This document shows, in pieces, positions 9,138-33,354 of a DNA stretch of 45,010 nucleotides. The translations under genes were made by a program, and so were the position numbers. The first letter of the stretch is position 1; the number at the start of each line of letters is the position of its first letter. The DNA comes from Terriglobia bacterium (GTDB lineage Bacteria > Acidobacteriota > Terriglobia > Bryobacterales > Bryobacteraceae): contig JAJPHN010000033.1 in NCBI GenBank assembly GCA_021325235.1, positions 1 to 45,010 of the forward strand. Reading direction: 5' to 3'. The notes under the pieces are model-generated. The model had not been told where the DNA came from. It did not search any database and saw only the letters and a program-made list of their open reading frames with translations.

Positions 9138-9877
9138 AGGCCGCCACGGGCACCACTCCGCCCGGAACCGAGAACGAGCAGCAGGCGGCGGGCTGGGTGC
9201 GGCAGATGTTCACCGAGATCGCGCCGCGCTACGATCTGCTGAATCATCTGCTTTCATTCAACATCGATCGCGGCTGGCGTAGGGCGTTGCTCGGTGCTCT
9301 GGCGCCGGTCGCGGCACGAACAGAGGCGAACATTCTGGATCTTTGCTGCGGAACGGGAGATGTTCTGCTCGATCTCACACGGATCTCGAAGGCGCGTACG
9401 TTCGGAGCGGATTTTTGCCATCCGATGCTTGTGAGCGCGCAGCAAAAGGCAGCGCGCCGGCAGCAGGCGGCCAGGCTGTTTGAAGCGGATGCGATGGTTT
9501 TACCGCTGGCGGATGGAACGCTCGATGCGATTGCGATTGCTTTTGGCTTTCGCAATCTTTCCAACTACCGGGCGGGACTGGCAGAATTTGCGCGCGTGCT
9601 GAAACCGGGCGGTGTGTTGGCGATTCTCGAATTCTCGCATCCGCCGAGCGCATTCGTCCGTGCTGCTTACAGTGTGTATGCGCGCTTCTTGCTTCCGGCG
9701 ATTGGAGGGATGATTTCGGGCTCGCGCGCGGCTTACTCGTATTTGCCGGAATCGATTGCGAAATTTCCGCGCGCCGCCGAGTTGAAGGAAATGATGAGAA
9801 ATGCCGGCTTTGCCGAGCCGCGATTCCGTTTGCTGTCAGGCGGAATCGCGGCCCTGCATACCGGCACCCGAGGTTAG
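9134..9877 (+). CDS. ubiE: Demethylmenaquinone/ubiquinone C-methyltransferase
   Basis: A 247-residue class I SAM-dependent methyltransferase of the UbiE/MenG family. The N-terminal signature FTEIAPRYDLLNHLLSFNID with GWRRALL (residues ~27-52), the SAM-binding LDLCCGTGDVLLDL, IAFGFRNLSNY and the C-terminal GGIAALHTGTR are all diagnostic. It carries out the C-methylation step of menaquinone (or ubiquinone) synthesis. In this lineage menaquinone is the likelier product. GTG 9134 overlaps the aroB stop. At its 3' end the stop (9875-9877) overlaps the stop of the convergent TonB-type receptor gene (9874-9876), leaving no room for a terminator between them. Confidence 0.94.
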   Translation: MKAATGTTPPGTENEQQAAGWVRQMFTEIAPRYDLLNHLLSFNIDRGWRRALLGALAPVAARTEANILDLCCGTGDVLLDLTRISKARTFGADFCHPMLVSAQQKAARRQQAARLFEADAMVLPLADGTLDAIAIAFGFRNLSNYRAGLAEFARVLKPGGVLAILEFSHPPSAFVRAAYSVYARFLLPAIGGMISGSRAAYSYLPESIAKFPRAAELKEMMRNAGFAEPRFRLLSGGIAALHTGTRG

Positions 9878-12800
9878 AAGAACAGCTTCAGCGAAAGCTG
9901 GACAATACGCGGGAAGTTTTGCTGGTAGAGATTGACTGTGCCAAAGCCCGTGTATGTGCCGTTGGCCTGCTTGGTGGGAGGACCATCGCCCGGGTTGTTG
10001 TCAGGGCCGGGGAACAGCACGGTGTTCGTCAGGTTAAGCGCTTCACCGCGGAACTGGAGGCGATAGCGCTCAGTGATGGCGAAGTCCTTGTGCACGGCGA
10101 AATCCAGATTCACAATGCTCGGATTACGTACCTGCGCGATCTGGTCCGGTAGATTCATCAATCCGTACTGCGGAATGCTGGCATAGCAGCCGAGCGGGTT
10201 GCCTGTGCTGTAGTTGTTGTACAGATAATTGTTCAGCTTCGAGCCGCCGTCCGGTGCATAGCCGTGACTGCATTCGTACCAATACCCGGTATCGAGGCCG
10301 GTTGGCGTGCCGGTCTGCGCCGACACGATGAAGTTCGCGCTCCATCCACCCGCCAGCGCATCGACAAATCCGTTGCTATTCGCAAGGAAGTGTCTGCCCT
10401 TGCCGAACGGCAATTGATACTCGCCATTGACCGTGAAGATCTGGGTGCGATCCTGGGGCGAAATCTCGTACTTCAGGTTCGGGTCCTGATACGGCCAGCC
10501 ATTCTGATATCCGGTGGCCTGCATGGTCTTGGACCAGGTGTAGGAGGCTTCGAAATTCAGACCGGCGCTCAGGCGTTTGGTCAGCTTCACTTCGAGAGCG
10601 TTGTAATTCTGCCTGCCGAGCGGATCGTTGTATTGTCCGATCAGATTACAGTACTGCGAAAGGGGCAGAATCAAATTGATTTTTGAGATAGTCGGGCTGG
10701 AACCGCAAGTTGAGCTGGCCGGAATCCCGGGCACACCGTAGTACGGGTTCGGGACCTGCTGATTGAACGCGCTCGGATTTGCTTGTGCGGCCTGTTGCTG
10801 TGCCAGCGTAAACGTGCCGTTGTCCCATACAAACACGCGCAAGCGGTCTGTGTAGTTTCCGGCATAGCGGGCGTCGAGGACCATCTGCCCCGGGAGTTCG
10901 CGCTGGAAGCCGAACGAGAATTCCTGCGAGCGCGGGATGCGGCGGCCGGGGAAGTCGATCGAAGCCTGGTTGCCTAATGCCGTCATCAGACCGAGGGAGT
11001 TACCCGGAGGCACCTGTACTCCACTTTGGAACGGAGTGCCGCTGGCGAAGTAGTTCGTGGGAGTTACGCCGCCATTGGTGGTGTTGATGTAAGGCGTTGA
11101 GACACTGAATCCAATGTCGCTGCCGCCTTCAAGCCCGACCGCGTAGAAGATACCGTAGCCCCCGCGAATGACCGTTTTGTCGTTTACCGCGTAAGCAAAG
11201 CCAAAGCGAGGCTCGATGTTGGTCCAGTCTGTGTCATACGCGTCTTTCGGGTTGCCGTTTACGCCGGGGAAAGTGAACCCGCCGTAAACCGTTCGGAGTG
11301 AGTTGGGATCGATACCGGCCGCCTGGTAGGCTGCAGCGTTGTTGGTGATATTGGCCTGGAAAGCCGCTTCGTTTGTGATGGGATTCACGCAGGTAAAGCA
11401 CATACCGCGATTCAGCCGATTGAACGCTTCGCGCAGTCCAGCCTGCAGATCGTAGCGCAGTCCGATGTTCAGGGTCAGCTTGTGGGTGACCTTCCAATCA
11501 TCCTGCACGTACGCCGCCCAGAAGGGAAAGCCTTGCAGCGTGGTCGTGTTGTAATCGACGTTCCCGCTCGAAGGATCACCGAGCAGCATGTCGCCCACGA
11601 TGAATCCGTCATTTACTCCCGGCAGCGTATTACGTTGCAGCGGATTGTACTGAGTGTTCTGCGTTCCGAAATTGAAGACACCATTCGGGCTGCCCACCGC
11701 GCCTGGATTGCCATATTGGAAATGAGCGATTTCGCCACCGAAGTGAATGGTGTGATTGGCAAGCGTCTTGGTCCAGTCGTTATCGAAGTACATTGTGTTG
11801 TACACGTCCACGCTGGTGTTGTTACCCACGACTTGGGGATAGTACGCGTTGGTATTAAACTCGGGCAACAACTTCAGATTGGTGGTCGGAACGTTCGGCA
11901 TGTTCAGCCCGATCGATTGCGGCGTAACTGTAGACGATAAATCGCCATTCGGGAAGTTATCGGTAAACCGCGAAAAGGAAGCCTTGAAGTCCGCGAGTAG
12001 CGTGGGCGTGAAGATATGCGTCATGTCCTGGCTCGCGACCAGTACCTGGCGCATGGTGTTAATGTTGCCGTTTTCGGCCGGTGGTGGGAACCCGCTCACG
12101 TTGCGGAATTCCGTACCATGCTGGAAGGCAAACGTGCTGTACCAGCGCGTCTTGTCGCTGGTATCGTAATCGACGCGTCCCATCGGCTGCCAATAGCGAT
12201 ACCGGTCGGGCACGTTGGCTGTGTAGTTATTCTGCAGTGCGTTGCTGCCTGTGTTGGGTAGTGGGTAAAGATTCAGAACTGCCGCTCCGATCGGGTTGAT
12301 ACGATTCGCCGGAATTGTGTCGTTCGGAAAAGCGGTGCGCGCGTACGCATTCCCGGGGCAGTTGGTCAGCGTTCCTCCGGGCGCAGTGCAAACGGTCGTT
12401 GTCGGATCGTAAACCGTATAACCGGTCTGCGTGAAATTCACGCCGCTGCCGTTGGTCGGCCGCAGATAGGCGGGCGGCACGCTGGTGACCGTCGTGAACG
12501 GGATGTTTTCGACGTAACCCTCGAAGCTACCGAAGAAGAAGACCTTGTCTTTCTTAATCGGACCGCCGAATACGCCGCCGAATTGGTTCTGTTGAAGATT
12601 CTGGCGCGGGATACCGTTCAGGTTGTTCTCGAAATTATTAGCATTCAGTACGCCGTTTTCGAAGTAATCGTAAACGTCACCGTGATACTCGTTCGTTCCC
12701 GACTTGGTGACCATGTTCACCGTGCCGCCGCCGGTGCGTCCGTAGCGTGCGTCGTAAGTCGTCGTCATCACGTTGACTTCCTGCAGAGCGTCCACGTTTG

Positions 12801-13473
12801 GCGCGATTTCCCATGTTCCCTGGCTGCCGTGCGCCTGCATGGTCACGTTCGAGCCGTCCAGCGTGAACTGCTGATAGCCCTGGACGCCGCCGCCCAGCGT
12901 GTAGTTATTCGAAACGTCCCAGCCGCGCGTTCCGGAGTAGCCCTGGGCACCGAACTGCGTCTGCAGAAACTGCGAACCGGGTGTGGTCCCGATCAGTGTG
13001 TAAACCTGGCGTCCGTTGAGCGGCAGGTTCTCGAGTTGCTGCTGGGTGAGAACCGTGCCGCCCGAGCCATTGGCCGTTTCAATCAGCGGCGGAGCTGCGC
13101 TTACATCGACGGTCTGTGTCTCGGTACCGATTTGAAGCGCAAAATTCAGGCCGCGCGATTGGCTCGCTTGTACGACGACGTTGTTCTGTACCTGTGTTTT
13201 GAAGCCCGGCGCCGTAACAGTCACGGTATACGTGCCCGGCAGAACATATGGAATAAAGTAAGCGCCGCGATCGGTGGTCGTGGCCGAATAGGCCTGCTGA
13301 GTGGCCGTGTTGACAGCCTTTACCGATGCGTTGGCGATGGTGGCGCCGCTTGGGTCGGTTACGGTTCCGGTAATGGTCCCGCGAAATTCTTGCGCCGAAA
13401 GAATGCCTGTGAAGGCGAAAAGCAGACAGACTGCGAGCACAGCACGCAGCCGCGTGGTCTTGCTGATTGACAT
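9874..13473 (-). CDS. TonB-dependent receptor-like outer-membrane protein with carboxypeptidase-regulatory domain
   Basis: A 1199-residue outer-membrane protein of the Oar-like group expanded in Acidobacteriota. It has a signal peptide (cleavage after SAQ, ~residue 27). An Ig-like carboxypeptidase-regulatory domain follows at ~30-115 (GTITGTVTDPSGATIANASV, Gly-Thr-Tyr-Thr-Val-Thr-Val). A plug domain has LENLPLNGRQVYTLIG and GGTVNMVTKSGTNEYHGDVY. A long beta barrel ends in the aromatic LSLKLFF typical of outer-membrane proteins. Such proteins are thought to import polymeric carbohydrates or other ligands, but the ligand is unknown here. No separate TonB/ExbBD or SusD is present. It has its own promoter region with two perfect inverted repeats (see 13493-13584) and follows a sigma-54 activator gene. 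Confidence 0.9.
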   Translation of the reverse strand: MSISKTTRLRAVLAVCLLFAFTGILSAQEFRGTITGTVTDPSGATIANASVKAVNTATQQAYSATTTDRGAYFIPYVLPGTYTVTVTAPGFKTQVQNNVVVQASQSRGLNFALQIGTETQTVDVSAAPPLIETANGSGGTVLTQQQLENLPLNGRQVYTLIGTTPGSQFLQTQFGAQGYSGTRGWDVSNNYTLGGGVQGYQQFTLDGSNVTMQAHGSQGTWEIAPNVDALQEVNVMTTTYDARYGRTGGGTVNMVTKSGTNEYHGDVYDYFENGVLNANNFENNLNGIPRQNLQQNQFGGVFGGPIKKDKVFFFGSFEGYVENIPFTTVTSVPPAYLRPTNGSGVNFTQTGYTVYDPTTTVCTAPGGTLTNCPGNAYARTAFPNDTIPANRINPIGAAVLNLYPLPNTGSNALQNNYTANVPDRYRYWQPMGRVDYDTSDKTRWYSTFAFQHGTEFRNVSGFPPPAENGNINTMRQVLVASQDMTHIFTPTLLADFKASFSRFTDNFPNGDLSSTVTPQSIGLNMPNVPTTNLKLLPEFNTNAYYPQVVGNNTSVDVYNTMYFDNDWTKTLANHTIHFGGEIAHFQYGNPGAVGSPNGVFNFGTQNTQYNPLQRNTLPGVNDGFIVGDMLLGDPSSGNVDYNTTTLQGFPFWAAYVQDDWKVTHKLTLNIGLRYDLQAGLREAFNRLNRGMCFTCVNPITNEAAFQANITNNAAAYQAAGIDPNSLRTVYGGFTFPGVNGNPKDAYDTDWTNIEPRFGFAYAVNDKTVIRGGYGIFYAVGLEGGSDIGFSVSTPYINTTNGGVTPTNYFASGTPFQSGVQVPPGNSLGLMTALGNQASIDFPGRRIPRSQEFSFGFQRELPGQMVLDARYAGNYTDRLRVFVWDNGTFTLAQQQAAQANPSAFNQQVPNPYYGVPGIPASSTCGSSPTISKINLILPLSQYCNLIGQYNDPLGRQNYNALEVKLTKRLSAGLNFEASYTWSKTMQATGYQNGWPYQDPNLKYEISPQDRTQIFTVNGEYQLPFGKGRHFLANSNGFVDALAGGWSANFIVSAQTGTPTGLDTGYWYECSHGYAPDGGSKLNNYLYNNYSTGNPLGCYASIPQYGLMNLPDQIAQVRNPSIVNLDFAVHKDFAITERYRLQFRGEALNLTNTVLFPGPDNNPGDGPPTKQANGTYTGFGTVNLYQQNFPRIVQLSLKLFF

Positions 13474-23183: not shown

Positions 23184-24095
23184 TCACTCCGGCTCGCGAT
23201 TGCCCGCCAGATGCGCCAGCTTCGCGGGATTGGTGACCAGGTAAATCGCCTCGATGCGTCCATTCTTCTCGCGGAACGTCATCACCGATCGCGGCTTGCC
23301 GTTCATATACGAGATAACCCCCGGCTCGCCGTTGATCTCGGTAATGCGCGGCTCCAGACCATGTTCGACCAGCTTGCGGAATCCAATCGCTCCGCTTGCC
23401 ACGTTCGCGGCTCCTCGCACCGGCTCCCGGGAAGCGAAGCCTGCGGGGCCATCGGCATAGAGCACCACATCCTGTGCCAATACCGAAACCAGCGCTTCGG
23501 CATTTCCGTTCCGGGCAGCTTCAAGGAAGGTTTCGAGCAAATGCCGGTGCTTCTCGCGCGAGCCCTCAAATCGCGGGCGCATCGACCCGACGTGTTGCCG
23601 CGCGCGCCGCAGAATCTGGCGGCAGTTCGCCTCCGATTGATTCAAAATCGAGCTGATTTCGCTGTACTCGTACTCGAATACCTCGCGCAGAAGAAAGACA
23701 GCGCGCTCCATCGGCGTGAGCCTTTCGAGCAGGACCAGAAATGCCATCGAAAGTGTTTCATCTACCCGAATCAGAGCCAGCGGATCGCCGTCCTGGCCGG
23801 TCACGACGGGTTCCGGGAGCCATTCACCGACATACTGTTCCCGCTGCACGCGCGCCGATTGCAGTTGAGTGATGCACAGCCGGGTGATGATCGTCATCAA
23901 AAAGGCACGCGGCGATCGGATTTCGTCGTCCGCTGCCTGCAGCCAGCGGAGAAAGGTCTCCTGCAGCATGTCTTCGGCATCGACCACCGTCCCCAGCATG
24001 CGATAGGCAACGGAAAAGAGCAGTCCACGATACTGCTCGAACTCCGCCAGGCGTTTCGCATCGCGTGAGGAAGCTTCCACCTCATCCGCTTGCAT
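23184..24095 (-). CDS. ECF41-type RNA polymerase sigma factor with SnoaL-like C-terminal domain
   Basis: A 303-residue sigma factor. Region 2 (~20-90) has YRMLGTVVDAEDMLQETFLRW; region 4 (~120-175) has LTPMERAVFLLREVF and YSEISSILN. The linker carries GEWLPEPV, the WLPEP motif typical of ECF41. The C-terminal ~120 residues are a SnoaL/NTF2-like domain (LLETFLEAARNGNAEALVSV, then ADGPAG), ending with NPAKL, a variant of the ECF41 NPDKL motif. In this group the C-terminal extension both restrains and is needed for activity, replacing a separate anti-sigma factor. Its start overlaps the stop of a free-standing SnoaL-like gene by 14 nt. ECF41 neighbours are usually oxidoreductases or carboxymuconolactone decarboxylases, none of which is seen here. 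Confidence 0.9.
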   Translation of the reverse strand: MQADEVEASSRDAKRLAEFEQYRGLLFSVAYRMLGTVVDAEDMLQETFLRWLQAADDEIRSPRAFLMTIITRLCITQLQSARVQREQYVGEWLPEPVVTGQDGDPLALIRVDETLSMAFLVLLERLTPMERAVFLLREVFEYEYSEISSILNQSEANCRQILRRARQHVGSMRPRFEGSREKHRHLLETFLEAARNGNAEALVSVLAQDVVLYADGPAGFASREPVRGAANVASGAIGFRKLVEHGLEPRITEINGEPGVISYMNGKPRSVMTFREKNGRIEAIYLVTNPAKLAHLAGNREPE

Positions 24096-24462
24096 CGTTT
24101 CCTGTCCCGTGTGCCGGGCGAATATCCATCCGGCAGATCAATTCGCCGCGAAACGTGTAGATATGGTTTACCAGCTGATCGAGCAGCACATTCCCGGCGC
24201 TGTCGCGCACCACCTGGTGAACGCGCACAGCAACGCGATCGGCATCGATTTCGTCGATTGCCACTGGAGTGACCTGCGGGTCGATCGAAGCCCATTGTCC
24301 GTCCCAGTAAGCGCGGATCGCCTCGTATCCCAAGAGCCGAGTTCCGAGAATCGCGTTTGGCCAGTCGACATCTTCCGTCATCAAATCGAAAACCGCCCTG
24401 GCATCCCGGCGATTGAATGCCTCATATGCTTTGCTGATGCGCTCTCTTTTCGACACTTCCAC
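24082..24462 (-). CDS. SnoaL-like (NTF2 superfamily) protein
   Basis: A 126-residue single-domain protein of the SnoaL/NTF2 fold: an N-terminal helix pair (RISKAYEAFNRRDARAVFDL), the MTEDVDWPNAILGTRLLGYE strand-loop, AIRAYWDGQW, then beta strands ending IYTFRGELICRMDIRPAH. Proteins of this fold bind or isomerise small hydrophobic molecules, but the fold alone does not define a reaction. It overlaps the sigma-factor gene (14 nt) and the upstream membrane-protein gene (41 nt), so the three are one transcriptional unit. The same fold occurs as the sigma factor's C-terminal domain, which suggests shared ligand sensing or a past duplication; that is inference. Confidence 0.85.
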   Translation of the reverse strand: MEVSKRERISKAYEAFNRRDARAVFDLMTEDVDWPNAILGTRLLGYEAIRAYWDGQWASIDPQVTPVAIDEIDADRVAVRVHQVVRDSAGNVLLDQLVNHIYTFRGELICRMDIRPAHGTGNDASG

Positions 24463-25177: not shown

Positions 25178-26944
25178 ATGGATCGCATCCGACTTACACA
25201 CATCTGCCTCGGCCTCTTCGTTGTTCTTCCCGCATTCGCACAGATTCAAAACCAGCCGGATGACGGTCAGTGGGTGATGCCGGCCAAGAACTACGCCAGC
25301 ACGCGCTACAGTACACTGGCCGAGATCAACGCCAGCAACGTCAGAAACCTTCGCACCGCCTTCACCTTTTCACTCGGCACGACGCGCGGAGCCGAAGCTG
25401 CGCCGCTCGTCGTGAACAACACGATGTACATCGTGACGCCGTTTCCAAACAACCTGTACGCGCTCGATCTCACTAAACCCGGCGCACCGGTGAAATGGGT
25501 GTATGAGCCGCACACTAATGCTTCGTCCCAGGGTGTCGCCTGCTGTGACGTGGTAAATCGCGGCGCGGCGTACTACAACGGCAAAATCTACTACAACCTG
25601 CTCGATGTGGAGACGGTCGCCGTCGATGCGAACACCGGCAAGCTCATCTGGCGCACCAAGCTGGGCGATATCAACAACGGAGAATCGATTACCATGGCGC
25701 CGATCGTTGCCAAAGGTAAAGTGCTGGTGGGCAACAGCGGCGGCGAATTCGGCGTGCGGGGCTGGCTCGCCGGCCTCGATGCAGACACGGGCAAAATCGC
25801 CTGGCGTGCCTACAGCGCCGGACCCGACAAAGACGTGCTGATCGGCCCGAATTTCAAGCCCTTCTACAAAATGGATCAGGGCACGGATCTGGGCGTGAGA
25901 ACCTGGCCTCCCGACGCCTGGAAAATCGGCGGCGCCTCTGCCTGGAGCTGGATTTCTTACGATCCCCAGCTCGACCTCTTCTACTACGGCACCTCGAACC
26001 CAGGCCCCTGGAATCCCGAGCAGCGTCCCGGCGACAACAAGTGGAGCTCGACGTTGTTTGCGCGCCGTCCCGATACCGGCGAAGCCATCTGGGCCTACCA
26101 GATGAACCCGCACGATTTGCATGACTACGACGGCGTCAACGAAAACGTGCTGCTCGATCTCACCGTCAACGGCCAGTCCCGCAAGCTGCTCGCCCATCCC
26201 GATCGCAACGGCTTCCTCTACCTGATGGACCGGCAGACGGGCGAGATCGTCTCGGCCGAAAAGTTTGGCTTTACCAATACCTCCGAGAGTGTCGATCTGA
26301 AAACCGGCGCGTTGCGTCTCAACACGCAAAAGCAGACCGGTTTCCACACCGTGCGCGATGCCTGCCCCGCGCCGCCCGGCGTGAAAGACTGGCAGCCTTC
26401 TTCCTATTCGCCCAAAACCGGACTGCTCTATATTCCGCACAACAATCTCTGCTACGAGTCGCAGGGGACGAATGCCAATTACATCGCGGGAACACCATAC
26501 GTCGGCATGAAAGTGCGCATGTACGCCGGGCCGGGCGGCAATCGCGGTGTCTTCGGCGCATGGGATCCGGTGCACGCCAAATACGTCTGGAGCATCAACG
26601 AGATGTTTCCGGTCTGGAGCGGCGCGCTCTCTACGGCCGGCGATATTGTTTTCTACGGCACTATGGACGGCTGGTTCAAAGCAGTCGACGCGCACGACGG
26701 CAAGCCGCTCTGGCAATTCAAAGTTGGATCGGGCATCATCGGCCAGCCCGTCGCCTACAAGGGCCCCGACGGAAAAGAGTACATAGCGATTCTCTCGGGC
26801 GTCGGCGGCTGGTCGGGGGCTGTAGTTTCCGGCGGATTGAACGGAGTGGATGGCACTGGCGCGCTCGGTTTTCTGAACGCCATGTCCGATCTCGGCAAAT
26901 ACACCACGAAAGGCGGCATGCTCTATGTCTTCTCGCTGCCTTAG
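25178..26944 (+). CDS. xoxF: XoxF-type PQQ-dependent methanol/alcohol dehydrogenase
   Basis: A 588-residue periplasmic quinoprotein with a signal peptide (cleaved after AFAQ, ~residue 22) and an eight-bladed propeller. Family landmarks are the vicinal disulfide in GVACCDVVNRG, GGEFGVRGW with metal ligand Glu190, GTSNPGPWNPEQRPGDNKW with Asn274, and HDLHDYDGVNE with catalytic Asp316. Asp318, two residues after the catalytic Asp, marks lanthanide-dependent enzymes; calcium-type MxaF has Ala there. The strong resemblance of DVLIGPNFKPFY and TWPPDAWK to XoxF supports the assignment over ethanol dehydrogenases. No fused cytochrome domain is present; electrons must go to a separate cytochrome c. 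It overlaps the next gene by 20 nt. Confidence 0.88.
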   Translation: MDRIRLTHICLGLFVVLPAFAQIQNQPDDGQWVMPAKNYASTRYSTLAEINASNVRNLRTAFTFSLGTTRGAEAAPLVVNNTMYIVTPFPNNLYALDLTKPGAPVKWVYEPHTNASSQGVACCDVVNRGAAYYNGKIYYNLLDVETVAVDANTGKLIWRTKLGDINNGESITMAPIVAKGKVLVGNSGGEFGVRGWLAGLDADTGKIAWRAYSAGPDKDVLIGPNFKPFYKMDQGTDLGVRTWPPDAWKIGGASAWSWISYDPQLDLFYYGTSNPGPWNPEQRPGDNKWSSTLFARRPDTGEAIWAYQMNPHDLHDYDGVNENVLLDLTVNGQSRKLLAHPDRNGFLYLMDRQTGEIVSAEKFGFTNTSESVDLKTGALRLNTQKQTGFHTVRDACPAPPGVKDWQPSSYSPKTGLLYIPHNNLCYESQGTNANYIAGTPYVGMKVRMYAGPGGNRGVFGAWDPVHAKYVWSINEMFPVWSGALSTAGDIVFYGTMDGWFKAVDAHDGKPLWQFKVGSGIIGQPVAYKGPDGKEYIAILSGVGGWSGAVVSGGLNGVDGTGALGFLNAMSDLGKYTTKGGMLYVFSLP

Positions 26945-27677
26945 CGTGTTCCTGGCGGTGGCGTTTGCAGGCGTGATGCAGGCCCGAACGTTACGTGTGT
27001 GCGCGGCACCCGACAACCTGCCGTTTTCCAATCGAACCAGCGAAGGCTTCGATAACAAGATTGCGGAACTCCTCGCAAATGTGCTCCAGGCTTCGCTCGC
27101 CTATACCTGGATCGAAGACAGCAAAGCGGAAGCAAGCCGGAGTCTCGCCTCCGGCGCTTGCGATGTGCTCACGGGCGTGCCCTCGGCGCTTGATGACGTG
27201 GCCGCCACGGAACCGTACTACCGCTCGAGCTATGTTTTCGTCTCGCGCGGCACGCTGGGCATTACCTCGCTGCTCGATGATCGTCTGGCGCAGTTGCGAA
27301 TTGGCATAAACGTCGTCGGCAATGACTACGCACCACCGGCCGCCGCGCTTGCCCGCCGCGGCATTACGCAGAACATCGTCTCATTCCCGCTCGCCGAGCC
27401 GCACAAGATTGTAGACGCTGTCGATAACGGCGAAGTCGATCTCGCGATCGTCTGGGGTCCCGTGGCTGGATACTTTGCCAAGTCAGCGCGCCACCCTGTG
27501 ACGCTCACTCCTGTTTCGCCGCCTGCTTTCATGGGCATCCCGTTTACCTTCCAAATCTCGATGGCCGTGCGCAAGAACGATACCGAATTGCGAGACGAAC
27601 TGAACCGCGCGCTCGCGCAGAACGGGCGCGCCATCAAAGCTGTGCTTACGGAATATGGCGTCCCTCAGATACAGTAA
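26925..27677 (+). CDS. xoxJ: XoxJ/MoxJ-like periplasmic binding protein
   Basis: A 250-residue protein of the quinoprotein-dehydrogenase-associated substrate-binding family (MoxJ/XoxJ). A signal peptide (cleaved near MQA, ~residue 20) precedes a type-II periplasmic binding fold: LRVCAAPDNLPFSNRTSEGF, then IAELLANVL, DVLTGVPSALDDVAATEPYY, RIGINVVGNDYAPPAAALA, VDLAIVWGPVAGYFA. XoxJ is thought to help activate or mature XoxF rather than to serve an ABC transporter, and no ABC permease is present here. The start lies 20 nt inside the dehydrogenase gene and the end overlaps the cytochrome gene by 23 nt, which binds the three functionally. Confidence 0.85.
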   Translation: MSSRCLSVFLAVAFAGVMQARTLRVCAAPDNLPFSNRTSEGFDNKIAELLANVLQASLAYTWIEDSKAEASRSLASGACDVLTGVPSALDDVAATEPYYRSSYVFVSRGTLGITSLLDDRLAQLRIGINVVGNDYAPPAAALARRGITQNIVSFPLAEPHKIVDAVDNGEVDLAIVWGPVAGYFAKSARHPVTLTPVSPPAFMGIPFTFQISMAVRKNDTELRDELNRALAQNGRAIKAVLTEYGVPQIQ

Positions 27678-28188
27678 GAGCGCTTTCTTCGCCGCGGCGC
27701 TGCTGCTCGCCTCCTGCCAGCGCGAAAAGCACGATATCCAACCCGCGCCCACCCGTCTTGCGATCTACGGCGATGCCGCACGCCAGAGTGCATTGCGTCC
27801 GGGCGGCTCGGTTAAGCCGCAGCCGGTCGTTACCAATCCTTACAATGCGAGCGGCTACGACATCTCCGAGGGCCAGCGCCTCTACGATTGGTACAACTGC
27901 TCCGGCTGCCACTTCGCCGGAGGCGGCGGCATCGGTCCACCTCTGATCAAGAAAGAATGGATCTACGGCGGCGAACCGGCCAATCTCTTCGACACGATCG
28001 TCAAAGGACGTCCCAATGGCATGCCGAGTTGGGGCGGCCGTATTCCCGAATACCAAATCTGGCAGATTGTCGCCTACGTGCGCTCGATGAATGGCGAGCA
28101 GCCGACTTCGGCCACTCCCACCCGCCCGGACACGATCGAGACGAATCCGCAGAACCTGGTCAATCGCGTTCCCGGAGCGACCAAGTGA
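27655..28188 (+). CDS. Lipoprotein cytochrome c, likely electron acceptor of the alcohol dehydrogenase
   Basis: A 177-residue protein with a lipobox (LLLASC, Cys21) and a single class-I cytochrome c domain. Haem binding is at Cys82-Ser-Gly-Cys-His86, followed by a Gly-rich loop (FAGGGGIGPPL). The probable sixth ligand is the Met in RPNGMPSWGGRIP, and the C-terminal helix is YQIWQIVAYVRSMN. This is the organisation expected for a XoxG/PedF-like partner: encoded right after the dehydrogenase and its XoxJ, but membrane-tethered rather than soluble. Its stop overlaps the GTG of oxidase subunit II by 4 nt. It probably passes electrons from the dehydrogenase to the oxidase; the order is inferred from context. 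Confidence 0.85.
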   Translation: MASLRYSKSAFFAAALLLASCQREKHDIQPAPTRLAIYGDAARQSALRPGGSVKPQPVVTNPYNASGYDISEGQRLYDWYNCSGCHFAGGGGIGPPLIKKEWIYGGEPANLFDTIVKGRPNGMPSWGGRIPEYQIWQIVAYVRSMNGEQPTSATPTRPDTIETNPQNLVNRVPGATK

Positions 28189-29204
28189 AGCGTCTCTGGT
28201 TCGCGCTCGCCGCTTTGGCGTATTCTGCCGCTGCTCAGCAGCAGTCCGCGCTCAATCCCGCGGGTCCGCAATCGGGCCGTATCGCCGGCCTCTGGTGGTT
28301 CTTCTTCTATCTGCTTGGCGCGATCTTCATCATCGTCATGCTCATCATGCTGCGCACGCTCATGCGCGGCCATCGTAATGCCGAGGAGAATCAGCCGCTC
28401 GAAAATCACGAACGCGCCCAGACCCGCGAAACGCGCCTGCGCAGCATCGTCACCGTTTCGAGCGTCGTTACGGTTGTTCTGCTCTTCATTCTGCTGGTCG
28501 CGAGCATCAGCATCGGCAAAGCCAACGCCGATCTCGGAGCAAGCGGCAAGCCGATGATCATCCAAGTCATTGGCAATCAGTGGTGGTGGCAATTCTCGTA
28601 TCTGAACGACGATCCGTCGCAGGTGCTCACGACCGCCAACGAGATTCACATCCCCATCGGTAAGACGGTACTCATTCAGGGCCAGTCAAACGATGTGATC
28701 CACAGCTTCTGGGTGCCGAATCTGCATGGCAAGCGCGATCTCATTCCTTCCCGCGTGACCACCGAGTACATTCGCGCTGATCGTCCCGGTATTTATCGGG
28801 GGCAATGCGCCGAGTTCTGCGGACTGCAGCACGCGCATATGGCGTTCTACATCGTCGCCGAGCCCGAGGACAAATTCAAAGCCTGGATGCAGGCGCAGCT
28901 GCAGCCTGCGGTTGCGCCCGCCACACCTGCGCTCGCGCAGGGCCAGCAGAATTTTCTAAATTACGCCTGCGTCTATTGCCACCAGATTCGCGGCACAACT
29001 GCTTCCGGCACGAACGGTCCCGATCTCACGCATTTCGGCTCGCGCCGCACCATTGCGGCCGGCACGCTACCGAATACGCCCGGCAATCTCGGCGGCTGGA
29101 TTGTCAATCCACAGAGCATCAAGCCCGGCAATCACATGGCGACGATCGCGGTGAAGCCCGACGATCTGCAGCCCATGATCCAGTACCTGGAGAGCTTAAA
29201 GTAA
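28185..29204 (+). CDS. coxB: Cytochrome c oxidase subunit II with fused cytochrome c domain (caa3 type)
   Basis: A 339-residue protein starting at GTG 28185, chosen because it begins the signal peptide and overlaps the preceding stop. Two transmembrane helices follow (GLWWFFFYLLGAIFIIVML and IVTVSSVVTVVLLFILL). The cupredoxin domain has the electron-entry aromatic cluster GNQWWWQFSY. The CuA ligands are His173, Cys208, Cys212, His216 and Met219 in QCAEFCGLQHAHM. A C-terminal cytochrome c domain has Cys262-x-x-Cys-His266. The fusion defines a caa3-type oxidase that accepts electrons through its own haem c. Located in the inner membrane facing the periplasm. Confidence 0.94.
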   Translation: MKRLWFALAALAYSAAAQQQSALNPAGPQSGRIAGLWWFFFYLLGAIFIIVMLIMLRTLMRGHRNAEENQPLENHERAQTRETRLRSIVTVSSVVTVVLLFILLVASISIGKANADLGASGKPMIIQVIGNQWWWQFSYLNDDPSQVLTTANEIHIPIGKTVLIQGQSNDVIHSFWVPNLHGKRDLIPSRVTTEYIRADRPGIYRGQCAEFCGLQHAHMAFYIVAEPEDKFKAWMQAQLQPAVAPATPALAQGQQNFLNYACVYCHQIRGTTASGTNGPDLTHFGSRRTIAAGTLPNTPGNLGGWIVNPQSIKPGNHMATIAVKPDDLQPMIQYLESLK

Positions 29205-31145
29205 ATGGCCACGCAGGACGTCTCTCCGCACATCCCGAACGAGCACGCCGAACTCAGTCTGCTCGATCGCGTCTGGCAGAACGGGCGCGGGATCTTCGGC
29301 TGGCTTTCGGTCACCACCCACCACGCCATCGGCATGCGCTACATCGTAACGGCCTTCGTGATGCTGCTGCTTGGCGGCATCGAAGCGCTGCTCGTGCGTA
29401 TTCAGCTCGCGCATTCGAACAACACATTTCTCGGGCCCGATCGCTACAACGAAATCTTCACGACTCATGGCACCACCATGATGTTTCTCTTCGCGGTGCC
29501 CGTGATGGAAGGCATGGCGATTTATCTTGTGCCGATGATGTGCGGCACGCGCAACGTTGCGTTCCCGCGCCTCAATGCCTTCGGCTACTGGCTCTACCTG
29601 GGCGGCTGTCTGTTCCTCTACTGGGGCGTCTTCACCAACGCCGCGCCTGATATGGGATGGTTCGCTTATCCGCCGCTCTCGGGCCCGCAATTCACGCCCG
29701 GCAAGCGTACCGATATCTGGGCGCAGATGATCACCTTCACCGAAGTCTCCGCCTTATGCGTAGCCACGGAACTCATCGCGACCATCTTCAAAATGCGGGC
29801 GCCACGCATGTCGCTCAATCGCATCCCGCTTTTTGTCTGGTCCATTCTCGTTCAGTCGTTCATGACGATCTTCGCCATGCCGGCTATCGTGATCGCGAGC
29901 TCCTATCTGCTCTCCGATCGCACCGTCGCGACGCATTTCGTCAATCCGGCCGAAGGCGGCGACCCGATTCTCTATCAGCATGTCTTCTGGTTCTTTGGGC
30001 ATCCCGAGGTCTACATCATTTTTATTCCGGCGCTCGGGTTCGTCTCGGCCATCGTCACTGCCCACAGCCGTCGCGCCATTGTCGGCTATCCCGCCATGGT
30101 GCTTTCGCTCATCGCCAACGGCTTTATCGCCTTTGGCCTGTGGGTCCATCACATGTTCGCCACCGGGCTGCCACAGATCGGCGAAGCCTACTTTACCGCC
30201 TCGAGCATGATGATCGCTGTCACGAGCGGTATCCAGATCTTCTGCTGGCTCGCCACGCTCTGGAGCGGTAAAGTGCGCCTCACTACCGCGCTGCACTTCG
30301 TCTATGGATTCCTGGTCATCTTTGTGCTTGGCGGATTGACGGGCGTAGTTCTCGCCTCGGTCCCGCTCGATCTGCAGGTCCACGACACCTTTTTCGTCGT
30401 GGCGCATTTTCATTACGTGCTGATCGGCGGCGCGCTCTTCCCACTCTTCGGCGCGCTTTACCACTGGTATCCGAAGATGACCGGCCGAATGATGAGCGAG
30501 CGGCTGGGCAAAATCAACTTCTGGTTTCTGTTCATCGGCTTCAATCTGACCTTCTTCCCGATGCACATTCTCGGCCTGCACGGCATGCCACGCCGCGTCT
30601 ACACCTACGGCCCCGAGATGGGCTGGGACAACCTGAATCTGCTCGCCACCATTGGGGCCTTTATCATCGCCATCGGCGGCATTCTGTTTCTGGTGAACGT
30701 TTTCTGGAGCCGTCGGCACGGGCGCATCGCGGGAAACAATCCGTGGGAAGCCGATTCGCTCGAGTGGGCCGCTGCTTCCCCGCCCAAGAATTACAATTTC
30801 GAATTTCTCCCGGTCGCGACCAGCCGGTATCCGCTGTGGGTCGCGCCCGAAAGTGAGCCCGCGTCTCTCAGCAAGGCGAAGACTCAACCGGATCGCGCCG
30901 TCGTCACCGGCCTGCGCAACGACCGCCGCGAAGTGCTCGTCACCACGCTGATGGATGCCGAGCCGCATCATCGCTACGTTCTGCCCGGCTCGAGCATCTG
31001 GCCGTTCATCACCGCGATCTGCGTCTCGATCGGGTTCATCGGCTCCGTTTTCAATCCCTGGTACATCATCTCGGGATCGATCATCTCGGGGCTGGCACTG
31101 CTTGGCTGGTTCTGGCCGCGCAAACTATTGGAGCTGGAGCCCTGA
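29205..31145 (+). CDS. coxA: Cytochrome c oxidase subunit I
   Basis: A 646-residue haem-copper oxidase catalytic subunit. CuB/haem ligands are visible: His266 and cross-linking Tyr270 in WFFGHPEVYIIFIP, His315-His316 in WVHHMF, and His401/His403 in VVAHFHYVL. The Glu of HPEVY and the Thr/Ser-rich helix SSMMIAVTSGIQ place it in the A1 class of proton-pumping oxidases. About twelve core helices are followed by an extension with two more hydrophobic segments near the C-terminus (FITAICVSIGFIGSVF and IISGLALLGWFW), as in longer bacterial caa3 subunits. The ATG follows the subunit II stop with no gap. Confidence 0.96.
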   Translation: MATQDVSPHIPNEHAELSLLDRVWQNGRGIFGWLSVTTHHAIGMRYIVTAFVMLLLGGIEALLVRIQLAHSNNTFLGPDRYNEIFTTHGTTMMFLFAVPVMEGMAIYLVPMMCGTRNVAFPRLNAFGYWLYLGGCLFLYWGVFTNAAPDMGWFAYPPLSGPQFTPGKRTDIWAQMITFTEVSALCVATELIATIFKMRAPRMSLNRIPLFVWSILVQSFMTIFAMPAIVIASSYLLSDRTVATHFVNPAEGGDPILYQHVFWFFGHPEVYIIFIPALGFVSAIVTAHSRRAIVGYPAMVLSLIANGFIAFGLWVHHMFATGLPQIGEAYFTASSMMIAVTSGIQIFCWLATLWSGKVRLTTALHFVYGFLVIFVLGGLTGVVLASVPLDLQVHDTFFVVAHFHYVLIGGALFPLFGALYHWYPKMTGRMMSERLGKINFWFLFIGFNLTFFPMHILGLHGMPRRVYTYGPEMGWDNLNLLATIGAFIIAIGGILFLVNVFWSRRHGRIAGNNPWEADSLEWAAASPPKNYNFEFLPVATSRYPLWVAPESEPASLSKAKTQPDRAVVTGLRNDRREVLVTTLMDAEPHHRYVLPGSSIWPFITAICVSIGFIGSVFNPWYIISGSIISGLALLGWFWPRKLLELEP

Positions 31146-31147
31146 AC

Positions 31148-31765
31148 ATGGAACTCGCTCCCAAAACTCTCGACGTCAGCCATCTCGAACCGTTCGATAT
31201 TTCCAGCCAGGCTCCGCTGTGGTGGGGACAGGTGCTCATCGCCTGCATCGAAGGCACGATGTTCTGCCTGCTCATCGCGGCATTCCTGTACACGCGGCTG
31301 CGCGTAGACGTGTGGCCTCTGCCCGGCGATCAGTTTCCGCACCTTACGCTGCCCACGCTCGCGCTCATTCCGCTCATCCTGAGCGCTGTCGGTTCCTTTA
31401 TCGCCAGCGAGGGTGCCAAAAGGAACGACCGTTCGCGCATGATCTTCGGCCTCACGCTCAATCTCGTGCTCGCCGCCATCTTCTTCGCCATGCGCATCGT
31501 CGAATGGCATTCGCTCAATTTCAACTGGAAGGCCGATATTCAGGGTTCCTACGTGTGGGCCTTCCTCGGCCTGCACAGCTTCGACGTCGTTGGCGATCTT
31601 GTCTTCACGCTCGTCCTGATCTTCTGCGTTGTCTCCGGCCGCTACGGAGAAAAGCAGCGCCTCGGCGTGCACGTTGATTCGGTGGTCTGGTATTTCCTGG
31701 TCGCGATCTGGATTCCGATTTACCTTGCCATCTACTGGGGCCCGAAACTTCTCGAATCGCAATGA
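31148..31765 (+). CDS. coxC: Cytochrome c oxidase subunit III
   Basis: A 205-residue five-helix membrane protein of the CyoC/CtaE family: APLWWGQVLIACIEGTMFC in helix 1, the conserved Glu region in FAMRIVEWHSLNFNW, GSYVWAFLGLHSFDVVGDLV with the family His-x-x-x-V-x-x-x, and a final VVWYFLVAIWIPIYLAIYW. It lacks the first two helices of seven-helix subunit III, as in many caa3 oxidases. It starts 2 nt after subunit I and its stop overlaps the next gene's ATG by 4 nt. It stabilises the catalytic subunit and is not itself redox-active. Confidence 0.9.
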   Translation: MELAPKTLDVSHLEPFDISSQAPLWWGQVLIACIEGTMFCLLIAAFLYTRLRVDVWPLPGDQFPHLTLPTLALIPLILSAVGSFIASEGAKRNDRSRMIFGLTLNLVLAAIFFAMRIVEWHSLNFNWKADIQGSYVWAFLGLHSFDVVGDLVFTLVLIFCVVSGRYGEKQRLGVHVDSVVWYFLVAIWIPIYLAIYWGPKLLESQ

Positions 31766-32118
31766 GCGCGCAAAGCACGACCCGCAATCTGATTCTCTGG
31801 ATCACGCTCCTTGCCGGCCCGGTGCTCTGGCTCATCAGTTTCCAGGCGAAATTCGCCTGGGCGCCCATCACCTGCTCGACGCAAAGTAAATTCGCGATCC
31901 TGCTCTTCTCGGCGCTGGCATTCGCCTTGAGTGCCATCGCGGGACTTCTCGCCTGGCGCACCTGGCGCTCGGTCGGCTCCGAAGTACCCGGCCAATCCGC
32001 CAATCCAATCGATCGGACGCGCTTCATGGCGCTGGGCGCCGTTGCTTTGTCAGCTGGCTTCTGCATCGTCATCGTGGCGCAGGCGATTCCCGATCTGATC
32101 CTCGAGGCATGCCAGTGA
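31762..32118 (+). CDS. Small hypothetical membrane protein in the oxidase operon
   Basis: I do not recognise a named family for this 118-residue protein. It has three hydrophobic segments: LILWITLLAGPVLWLISFQA, FAILLFSALAFALSAIAGLL, and FMALGAVALSAGFCIVIVAQ. Between helices 1 and 2 is a periplasmic-looking loop with APITCSTQSK. It ends ILEACQ, and both loop and end carry a Cys. Position between subunit III and CtaG with overlaps on both sides (4 and about 10 nt) argues that it acts in oxidase assembly or as an accessory subunit, perhaps replacing subunit IV. That role is inference from position only. Confidence 0.75.
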   Translation: MSAQSTTRNLILWITLLAGPVLWLISFQAKFAWAPITCSTQSKFAILLFSALAFALSAIAGLLAWRTWRSVGSEVPGQSANPIDRTRFMALGAVALSAGFCIVIVAQAIPDLILEACQ

Positions 32119-33002
32119 AGCAGCGCTCACTTGCGTTCATTCTTGTTCTACCGGCACTCGCGTTCGGGCATGCCGGCGAGCCGCTCGCTCCGCACGATCT
32201 CTGGTCTGCCTGGGAATTCGATCCCGGTGTCGTGCTCCCGGTAGCGCTCTCTGCCATTCTCTATGCGAGAGGCGCGCGCCGGCACACCGGACTCACGCTT
32301 CTGCAGCGCACCTGCTTCTGGACTGGCTGGCTTTCGCTCGTGCTCGCGCTGATTTCGCCGATTCACCCCATGGGAGAAGCGCTCTTCTCGGCGCACATGC
32401 TGCAGCACGAAATTCTGATGCTGATCTCGGCGCCGCTGCTCGTGCTCTCGCGCCCGCTCGTCACGTTTCTCTGGGCGCTTCCGATCGAGTGGCGCAAAGC
32501 TCTCGGGCGCTGGTCGAAAACGAAGCCAATTGCGCGCACCTGGAACGCCGTTACCGACCCGCTCACCGCCTGGCTGATCCACGCGGTTGCGATATGGGTC
32601 TGGCACGTGCCCTATCTCTTCCAACTCACTCTGCGCAGCGATCTCGCCCACAGCGGACAGCATTTGAGCTTTTTCCTTTCGGCATTGCTCTTCTGGTGGG
32701 CCGTCTTTTACGGCCATGGACGCAGAGCCTACGGCGCGGCCTTTCTTTACGTCTTCACCACTGCCATTCACACCGGAGCACTCGGCGCGCTGCTCACCTT
32801 CGCTCCTCACGTCTGGTATCCCGCCTACCGCACGACCACTCAAGCCTGGGGGCTCACACCTTTGCAGGACCAGCAGCTCGGCGGCTTGATCATGTGGGTG
32901 CCGGCCAGCCTCGTCTATCTCGCTGCTGGTCTGGCGCTGTTCGCCGCCTGGCTCAAGGAAAGCGATCTGCGTCTCGAAAGGACCCAGCTCGATGCGCGCT
33001 AG
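32109..33002 (+). CDS. ctaG: CtaG-type cytochrome oxidase assembly factor
   Basis: A ~297-residue membrane protein of the caa3-CtaG family, required for insertion of copper (CuB) into caa3-type oxidases. After an N-terminal signal-like helix there are six to seven helices. Conserved His residues occur in FSAHMLQHEILMLISAPLLV, WLIHAVAIWVWHVPYLF, HSGQHLSFF and TAIHTGALGALL; these His-rich helices are the family signature. ATG 32109 is possible, but GTG 32115 lies at better distance from the GAGG at about 32104 and gives the common GTGA overlap with the preceding stop. The gene overlaps the following cytochrome gene by 11 nt. Confidence 0.9.
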   Translation: MPVKQRSLAFILVLPALAFGHAGEPLAPHDLWSAWEFDPGVVLPVALSAILYARGARRHTGLTLLQRTCFWTGWLSLVLALISPIHPMGEALFSAHMLQHEILMLISAPLLVLSRPLVTFLWALPIEWRKALGRWSKTKPIARTWNAVTDPLTAWLIHAVAIWVWHVPYLFQLTLRSDLAHSGQHLSFFLSALLFWWAVFYGHGRRAYGAAFLYVFTTAIHTGALGALLTFAPHVWYPAYRTTTQAWGLTPLQDQQLGGLIMWVPASLVYLAAGLALFAAWLKESDLRLERTQLDAR

Positions 33003-33354
33003 CCTCTCGATTCTGCTCGCGGCTTTTCTTGTCTCCTGCGCGAATCCGCAGCACACCGCATCCGTCACGACCGGCGGCAACGCACAGCGCGGTAAAGCAG
33101 CCATCGCGCGTTACGGCTGCGGTTCCTGCCATCAGATCCCCGGCATTTCCGGCGCCGTGGGACTCGCCGGGCCGCCGCTCTCCGGTATCGCCAGCCGCTT
33201 CTACGTGGCCGGTGTTATGCCGAATACACCCGAAAATATGATTCGCTGGATCGAGCACCCCAAAGAAGTGGATGAAAAAACGCTCATGCCAGATCTGGGT
33301 GTCACTCCGGAAGACGCAACCGATATTGCCGGCTATCTTTATACGTTGAAATAG
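32992..33354 (+). CDS. Small lipoprotein cytochrome c
   Basis: A 120-residue protein with a lipobox (FLVSC, Cys16) and one haem c site at Cys43-Gly-Ser-Cys-His47, followed by QIPGISGAVGLAGPPLSGI. The likely Met ligand is in KTLMPDLGVTP, and the C-terminal helix ends AGYLYTLK. The domain is of the short membrane-tethered c-type cytochromes often encoded with caa3 oxidases. It is the last gene of the alcohol dehydrogenase-oxidase block and would give the oxidase a second electron-entry route besides the haem fused to subunit II. Whether it or the cytochrome at 27655 is the direct partner of XoxF cannot be told from sequence. Confidence 0.88.
   Translation: MRASLSILLAAFLVSCANPQHTASVTTGGNAQRGKAAIARYGCGSCHQIPGISGAVGLAGPPLSGIASRFYVAGVMPNTPENMIRWIEHPKEVDEKTLMPDLGVTPEDATDIAGYLYTLK

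Follow-up and report, generated by a model that had tools for sequence, protein, structure and literature searches.

Classical xoxFGJ modules consist of XoxF, XoxJ and a cytochrome c. A longer arrangement, in which the XoxF-type pyrroloquinoline quinone (PQQ) dehydrogenase is joined to oxidase genes, was reported by Voutsinos et al. 2024 (PMC10875860) for 12 of 12 Acidobacteria genomes with XoxF, and that paper names a 2014 mini-review (Keltjens) as the source for xoxF3 operons containing cox and ctaG. Also in 2014, Degli Esposti et al. (PMC4013037) defined cytochrome c oxidase (COX) operon type a-II, an aa3 oxidase operon often found with MxaF-related PQQ dehydrogenases. The locus considered here is a nine-gene operon (25178-33354, plus strand) of a Terriglobia bacterium (Acidobacteriota; Bryobacteraceae; assembly GCA_021325235.1, contig JAJPHN010000033.1), and the whole 45,010-nucleotide (nt) stretch analysed is referred to as the window. 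The operon is an already known arrangement; the preliminary description of this DNA had thought the gene order unusual, a view not borne out given the published Acidobacteria gene set and a-II operon. We consider it the Acidobacteriota form of the known XoxF3/COX type a-II module, with a predicted electron route from XoxF to O2, and give this reading a probability of about 0.82. What we add is a count of its conservation, its tie to one lineage of CoxA (subunit I), exchanges of either partner, the proton-channel residues of CoxA, and two cysteines of the small membrane protein Orf118.

The nine open reading frames (ORFs; Table 1) were all recovered where the preliminary description had placed them, and its claim that they follow one another with overlaps of 4-23 nt or gaps of 0-2 nt held at each of the eight junctions. 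Computed as next start minus previous end, so that a negative value is an overlap, these range from -23 to +2 nt: XoxF/XoxJ -20, XoxJ/CytC1 -23, CytC1/CoxB -4 (with the GTG start at 28185), CoxB/CoxA 0, CoxA/CoxC +2, CoxC/Orf118 -4, Orf118/CtaG -10 and CtaG/CytC2 -11. Such close packing is no matter of chance: the -20 overlap of XoxF and XoxJ and -4 overlaps at several other junctions, with start codons picked by script, are found again in relatives from two or more phyla. The conserved order also argues for one probable transcription and translation unit, in agreement with the co-transcription and coupled translation proposed earlier. Gene identities come from Pfam and NCBIfam profiles and PDB sequence matches (CoxB was scanned with one extra codon). 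CtaG scores below the stricter TIGR02737 model (56.6 bits, cut-off 279.35). The genome comprises 5.03 Mb in 60 contigs, is 95.7% complete with 4.8% contamination, and has the window as its contig 1.

Table 1. Genes of the operon (positions in the window), followed by plasmid loci in which the same oxidase lineage stands after an FdhF/YdeP-type oxidoreductase (positions in the respective loci).
Feature	Position	Strand	Evidence or source
XoxF-type PQQ alcohol dehydrogenase, 588 aa	25178..26944	+	TIGR03075 631.1 bits, cut-off 480.05; PDB matches; tree
XoxJ-like periplasmic binding protein, 250 aa	26925..27677	+	TIGR03871 237.7 bits, cut-off 212.15
CytC1, lipoprotein cytochrome c	27655..28188	+	PF13442 55.7 bits; CSGCH; lipobox
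CoxB, subunit II, CuA site CAEFCGLQHAHM and C-terminal haem c domain (CVYCH), GTG start	28185..29204	+	PF00116 and PF00034; TIGR02866 157.7 bits, cut-off 147.7
CoxA, subunit I, 646 aa, C-terminal membrane extension	29205..31145	+	TIGR02891 694.6 bits, cut-off 670.75
CoxC, short subunit III, 205 aa	31148..31765	+	PF00510 43.5 bits, cut-off 23.8
Orf118, membrane protein, three hydrophobic segments	31762..32118	+	No reliable Pfam or PDB match
CtaG (Caa3_CtaG), probable CuB assembly factor	32109..33002	+	PF09678 197.2 bits, cut-off 27.7
CytC2, second lipoprotein cytochrome c (CGSCH, lipobox)	32992..33354	+	PF00034 28.9 bits, cut-off 21.3
FdhF/YdeP-oxidase plasmid locus L200	2783-11039		Rhizobium
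FdhF/YdeP-oxidase plasmid locus L201	2993-11084		Ensifer
FdhF/YdeP-oxidase plasmid locus L202	3307-10183		Sphingobium

The preliminary description had suggested looking for the gene order in relatives, and would have counted its absence from all of them as a refutation; the order is in fact widely kept, and the proposal withstands that check. The named loci are the best 80 of 247, seeded with window XoxF peptides and so skewed to its kin; their phyla are those of the record titles, and some are the same records as genomes used in the genome searches below. With the 24 loci that have less than 5.5 kb downstream of XoxF set aside, 56 of the 80 count as untruncated. In 51 of these 56, from five phyla, the 9 kb that follow XoxF encode CytC1, CoxB, CoxA and CoxC in the same direction, and CtaG is present as well in 47: Acidobacteriota 18/18 (17 with CtaG), Pseudomonadota 21/26 (20), Gemmatimonadota 9/9 (8), Verrucomicrobiota 2/2 (1) and Myxococcota 1/1 (1). 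Of the five exceptions, L110 and L122 have no oxidase gene in the stretch examined, L127 has the oxidase genes convergent to XoxF, and a different oxidase lies upstream of XoxF in L131 and L148. We note two variants of the arrangement: a tandem pair of XoxF genes ahead of a single oxidase operon (L069 and L151) and, in a member of the Gemmatimonadales (L145), two caa3-type operons in tandem, one per oxidase lineage, around one XoxF.

The best PDB sequence match of the window dehydrogenase is 4mae (652.8 bits), which we take to be the SolV XoxF2, and its closest solved-structure relatives among PDB sequences are methanol dehydrogenases. It has Asp318, Asp316 and adjacent cysteines at 122 and 123, presumably the lanthanide-coordinating residue, the catalytic residue and the vicinal Cys pair, respectively. 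All 86 aligned sequences, the window counted, carry the extra Asp two residues past the catalytic Asp, and the MxaF reference has Ala in its place. A quick tree of 91 rows, which left out sequences more than 85% identical to one retained or shorter than 520 aa, places the enzyme in a large clade separate from the XoxF1, XoxF2, XoxF5 and MxaF references (five PDB sequences labelled by their presumed clades). The nearest named relatives of the enzyme come from metagenome-assembled genomes of Bryobacterales and other Terriglobia (Acidobacteriota). By elimination in the tree, whose references include no labelled XoxF3 or XoxF4, and with PMC10875860 assigning Acidobacteria XoxF to XoxF3, we class the enzyme as putatively XoxF3-type. 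The 250-aa protein encoded next passes the TIGR03871 cut-off used to define XoxJ/MoxJ-like proteins, and gene position makes CytC1 the probable electron acceptor of XoxF, the role of XoxG. Other XoxF genes were seen in passing. Three from the phylum occur in one genus (L076, L077 and L078 in genomes G098, G070 and G111); that of L076 groups with the SolV XoxF2 reference (99*), and L077 has two XoxJ-like matches without a linked oxidase. Genome G012 holds a second, remoter XoxF (L027, G012:C369 10403-12088; 51% identity) with a TAG inside its frame, with cytochrome and cox-like matches nearby (L063).

We suggest that periplasmic XoxF, with PQQ and a lanthanide, would oxidise methanol or another small alcohol, the alcohol substrate being predicted from the family to which the enzyme belongs. 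CytC1, a lipoprotein, would receive the electrons and hand them to CoxB (haem c and CuA); within CoxA they would travel by haem a to the haem a3-CuB centre and there reduce O2; such a route would bypass quinol and any complex III. XoxJ may assist XoxF. Assembly of the oxidase may be helped by CtaG and perhaps by Orf118, the latter by way of two cysteines predicted to be periplasmic, and CytC2 could act as a second carrier. The operon would thus predict lanthanide-using respiration of methanol or related alcohols by a cytochrome c oxidase of the module's own, with no part for complex III. In M. trichosporium OB3b, XoxF3 and XoxJ are reported to go up with Ce or ore (PMC12482762).

Supply of the cofactor and the fate of the product bear on how complete this module is. 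No PQQ synthesis genes occur among the annotated window proteins (a set smaller than all its ORFs), as the preliminary description had said, and in its own genome none of PqqB, PqqC and PqqE rises above the curated cut-off; the single PqqC-like match was rejected as a PQQ synthase, being a CADD-family protein. Since pqqB, pqqC and pqqE were not found, PQQ is probably taken up from outside. In the 13 genomes with a XoxF3-type match (the bacterium's own counted, several of them incomplete drafts), PqqC exceeds its cut-off in five and fails to do so in eight, including the two-contig G024; according to PMC10875860, 16 of 38 XoxF genomes have PQQ synthesis. Fae has no match above cut-off in the genome itself or in any of the 60 genomes searched, the same genome included, no glutathione-dependent formaldehyde dehydrogenase reaches its cut-off in that genome, and there is no haem A synthesis gene among the nine operon genes. 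The term self-contained, applied earlier to the module, therefore overstates the case.

The missing Fae and formaldehyde dehydrogenase favour a different substrate, some other alcohol or an aldehyde, in which case the module would dispose of electrons from detoxification and not serve methylotrophy. XoxF3 is moreover described in PMC10875860 as lacking experimental study. On the other hand, the methanol dehydrogenases are the nearest solved relatives, and XoxF itself is able to oxidise formaldehyde (PMC10875860). We regard a substrate other than methanol as a real possibility, although the odds are against it.

The second part of our reading concerns the oxidase. CoxAs linked to XoxF form one clade (100 by the Shimodaira-Hasegawa-like approximate likelihood ratio test) with the 14 sampled in-genome paralogues outside it, in a quick tree made with no mixture model; the clade also takes in the CoxA of genome G251 and a second copy in L132. 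Sixteen genomes gave 36 more CoxA matches that do not belong to the lineage, and these paralogues (L179-L192) are the ones among them with a readable locus. A hydrophobic segment past residue 545 is found in 57 of 58 clade CoxAs and in none of the 14 paralogues, which are shorter. In a count over 396 phylum genomes (thresholds of E <= 1e-150 for XoxF and E <= 1e-180 for the CoxA lineage), XoxF occurs in 15, of which 11 are XoxF3-type (with G251 on a basal branch) and four XoxF2- or XoxF5-like (G098 and G348 by tree, G070 and G111 by sharing the genus code of G098). The CoxA lineage occurs in 12, namely G226 and every one of the 11 XoxF3-type genomes; the four with XoxF2- or XoxF5-like enzymes lack it. 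Put as 11/11 XoxF3-type genomes against 1/385 others, the association has a Fisher p of 1.5e-20, with kinship not removed. Mantel correlations of XoxF distances with those of linked partners, likewise with shared ancestry not removed, are 0.747 for CoxA (n 56), 0.718 for CytC1, 0.680 for CoxB, 0.635 for CtaG (n 52) and 0.543 for XoxJ (n 46).

Several observations pull the other way, besides the lack of labelled XoxF3 and XoxF4 references mentioned above. CytC1 scores 34.3 bits under the cytochrome cL/MoxG model TIGR03872, for which the cut-off is 147.8. XoxF stands without oxidase genes in the stretch examined of L110 and L122, and in G251 the XoxF and oxidase halves are on separate contigs. 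No sigma-70-like promoter was found, where shuffles gave a mean of 2.6, a comparison of little weight in Acidobacteriota. In Methylocella silvestris, XoxF3 shows hardly any expression, and lanthanides leave its transcription unchanged (PMC9291206). G226 has the CoxA lineage with no XoxF match at E 1e-150 and none in 19 kb around the oxidase. Finally, plasmids of Rhizobium C104, Ensifer adhaerens W2-B and Sphingobium TomTYG65 (L200, L201 and L202) have the oxidase lineage behind a molybdopterin oxidoreductase of FdhF/YdeP type, and the stretch contains no XoxF; both oxidoreductases scanned (L200 and L202) exceed the TIGR01701 cut-off, and the linked CoxAs are nested at two separate places in the XoxF-linked tree.

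These three plasmid copies weaken the idea that the oxidase lineage is strictly dedicated to XoxF. Together with G226, they would fit an oxidase cassette (CytC1-CoxBAC-orf-CtaG-CytC2) that acts as a general acceptor, working with several dehydrogenases or with the ordinary chain, and has in XoxF3 no more than its commonest neighbour. We think this unlikely, if worth some weight: only one of the 396 phylum genomes has the oxidase lineage without XoxF3, and the XoxF and oxidase genes overlap in tight order. Exchange also runs in the other direction, as the XoxF neighbour in L131, L148 and the Methylocella tundrae plasmid L207 is another oxidase lineage, in which Trp replaces the GHPEVY Glu. Because of the swaps on both sides, we suggest that either partner can be exchanged while the link between dehydrogenase and oxidase is kept. 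That second oxidase lineage (L131, L148, the upstream copy of L145, and L207) has GHPWVY, Ala or Thr at the K-channel Lys position, and the D-channel Asp kept.

XoxF at >= 60% identity was found in 16 plasmid records, of which four were examined; the oxidase genes are adjacent in all four, and two of these are on plasmids typed conjugative. Conjugative-typed plasmids with the XoxF-oxidase module are S. medicae pSMED03 (L208), S. fredii pSfreNXT3a (L209) and Bradyrhizobium p195_2 (L199), and in the last (XoxF 59%) the oxidase genes precede xoxF.

That XoxF lies beside a housekeeping caa3 operon by chance is something we reject, since nothing favours it beyond the two other COX1-family genes of the genome, which could serve general respiration, and the 51 of 56 loci in five phyla, the separate CoxA lineage and the co-occurrence all speak against it. 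Conserved order, a single CoxA lineage and co-occurrence likewise support the earlier proposal that the XoxF dehydrogenase is functionally joined to the terminal oxidase.

The CoxA of the window retains its metal ligands and departs from the canonical A1 type in its proton channels. Following P. denitrificans numbering (PMC3084760 Table 2), with positions mapped through motifs and an alignment with the mycobacterial subunit, the A1-type definition there comprises Asp124 and Glu278 of the D-channel and Lys354 of the K-channel. Window CoxA has the Glu (Glu268), as well as Tyr270 and the His ligands, but Asn117 stands in place of the Asp and Gln344 in place of the Lys. The earlier label of caa3 oxidase thus holds in part, the enzyme being caa3-like in its component parts and departing from the residue definition of a canonical A1 enzyme. 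These replacements are general in the lineage, for which we compared 66 CoxAs, with thinned, partial, convergent and second copies excluded. The K-channel position is Gln in 65 and Ile in one; the D-channel Asp position is Asn in 40, Ser in 13, Thr in four, Ala in three, Gln in three, Asp in two and Glu in one, and so acidic in 3/66. Glu278 is Glu in 65 and Asp in one, and a helix IV Glu (180) is present in 65/66. The 14 paralogues have, at the same four positions in turn, Lys in all 14; Asp in 13 and Glu in one; Glu in seven and Ala in seven; and Gly in all 14. The haem and CuB His ligands and the active-site Tyr are intact in 58 of 58 lineage CoxAs. The Asn199 position is acidic in 35/66 (34 Glu and one Asp; Glu189 in the window), and an acidic residue at either this or the Asp124 position is found in 36/66. 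Among the excluded copies, Gln occupies the Lys position in 11 of 11 that were readable, and the D-channel position is Asn or Ser in 13 of 14, with Asp in one (L139).

Four plasmid oxidases whose CoxA is longer (837-851 aa), and whose surrounding stretch gave no match to XoxF, have Gln at the K-channel position and Glu in helix IV, and keep the D-channel Asp. They weaken the view that loss of the K-channel Lys is specific to XoxF-linked oxidases, and because they too have Gln, that loss is probably older. Among the residues compared, what sets the XoxF-linked lineage apart from these four is that the D-channel Asp is nearly lost. PMC8239418 discusses variants of the K-channel, and its possible loss, within family A; in the main texts searched we found no statement on channel residues of XoxF3-type operons, and the point may already be published. 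Tentatively, and with more doubt than confidence, we propose that the oxidases of XoxF3 operons may be a lineage of family A in which both textbook residues for proton entry are gone, a helix IV Glu is general, and protons take a rebuilt route, perhaps with reduced or no pumping. Such an enzyme could be a fast, low-yield outlet for dehydrogenases (XoxF3, and FdhF/YdeP on some plasmids) and not part of a normal energy-conserving chain.

Orf118 has no reliable family or PDB match in Pfam and PDB searches, and PMC10875860 gives the small protein a likeness to 'vesicle-mediated transport'. An ORF of >= 70 aa is present between CoxC and CtaG in 46 of the 48 loci where the gap between these genes is 200-700 nt, and absent in L133 and L151. 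In an alignment of 44 loci and the window (L096 and L097 were dropped, as the ORF picked has no hydrophobic segment), the only invariant columns among the 45 members are Cys38 and Cys117. Given the three hydrophobic segments and the charged residues in the loop past the second, both cysteines are likely to be periplasmic. Our guess is that Orf118 might handle disulphides or copper in oxidase assembly. We set aside its identification as a free-standing subunit IV (CtaF), as type a-II operons are described as having a COX1 into which a COX4-like part is fused (PMC4013037).

Two neighbouring features of the window are recorded here. A gene for a sigma-70-family factor, resembling extracytoplasmic function (ECF) factors, lies beside a SnoaL-like protein (23184-24462, minus strand), divergent from the operon, and is a candidate regulator. 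A large outer-membrane beta-barrel protein with a CarboxypepD_reg domain, presumably TonB-receptor-like, is encoded about 11.7 kb upstream of the operon (9874-13473, minus strand); a link to PQQ or lanthanide uptake is conceivable.

XoxF3 makes up 340 of 411 XoxF sequences in weathered-granite and soil metagenomes (PMC10875860), a dominance that contrasts with the 11 of 396 phylum genomes found here. If the missing channel residues do alter pumping, the energy yield assumed for the methanol sink would change, and the oxidase family would offer a natural experiment on what haem-copper oxidases require for pumping.

Among the closest known systems are the XoxF3 systems of Acidobacteria in PMC10875860, most of which have a protein of ~110-130 aa between CoxIII and CtaG, as here. 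The window differs from them in that neither NRAMP nor YncE is among its annotated proteins (again, not all ORFs), and the passages describing those systems mention neither the residues of the proton channels nor the cysteine pair of the small protein. The operon agrees with COX type a-II in having a PQQ dehydrogenase in a COX operon and a C-terminal membrane extension of COX1, the latter judged by length and hydrophobicity; PMC4013037 describes a COX1 with a COX4-like fusion and a five-helix COX3, and the window has the CoxA extension and a CoxC of 205 aa. Type a-II was described for Proteobacteria, whereas the window is from Acidobacteriota, and its account in the main text carries no wording on proton channels. 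A 2024 ISME J review (PMC11845868) lists cox, CytC and CtaG genes in the legend of its XoxF operon figure, and its text names neither XoxF3 nor Acidobacteria. With the canonical A1 haem-copper oxidases the operon's oxidase has in common a family A subunit I, a CuA subunit II, the GHPEVY Glu, the Tyr and the His ligands; unlike them, it has Gln for the K-channel Lys and Asn for the D-channel Asp. Against the classical xoxFGJ modules, the order in the operon is xoxF, xoxJ and cytochrome c, and it runs straight into the terminal oxidase.

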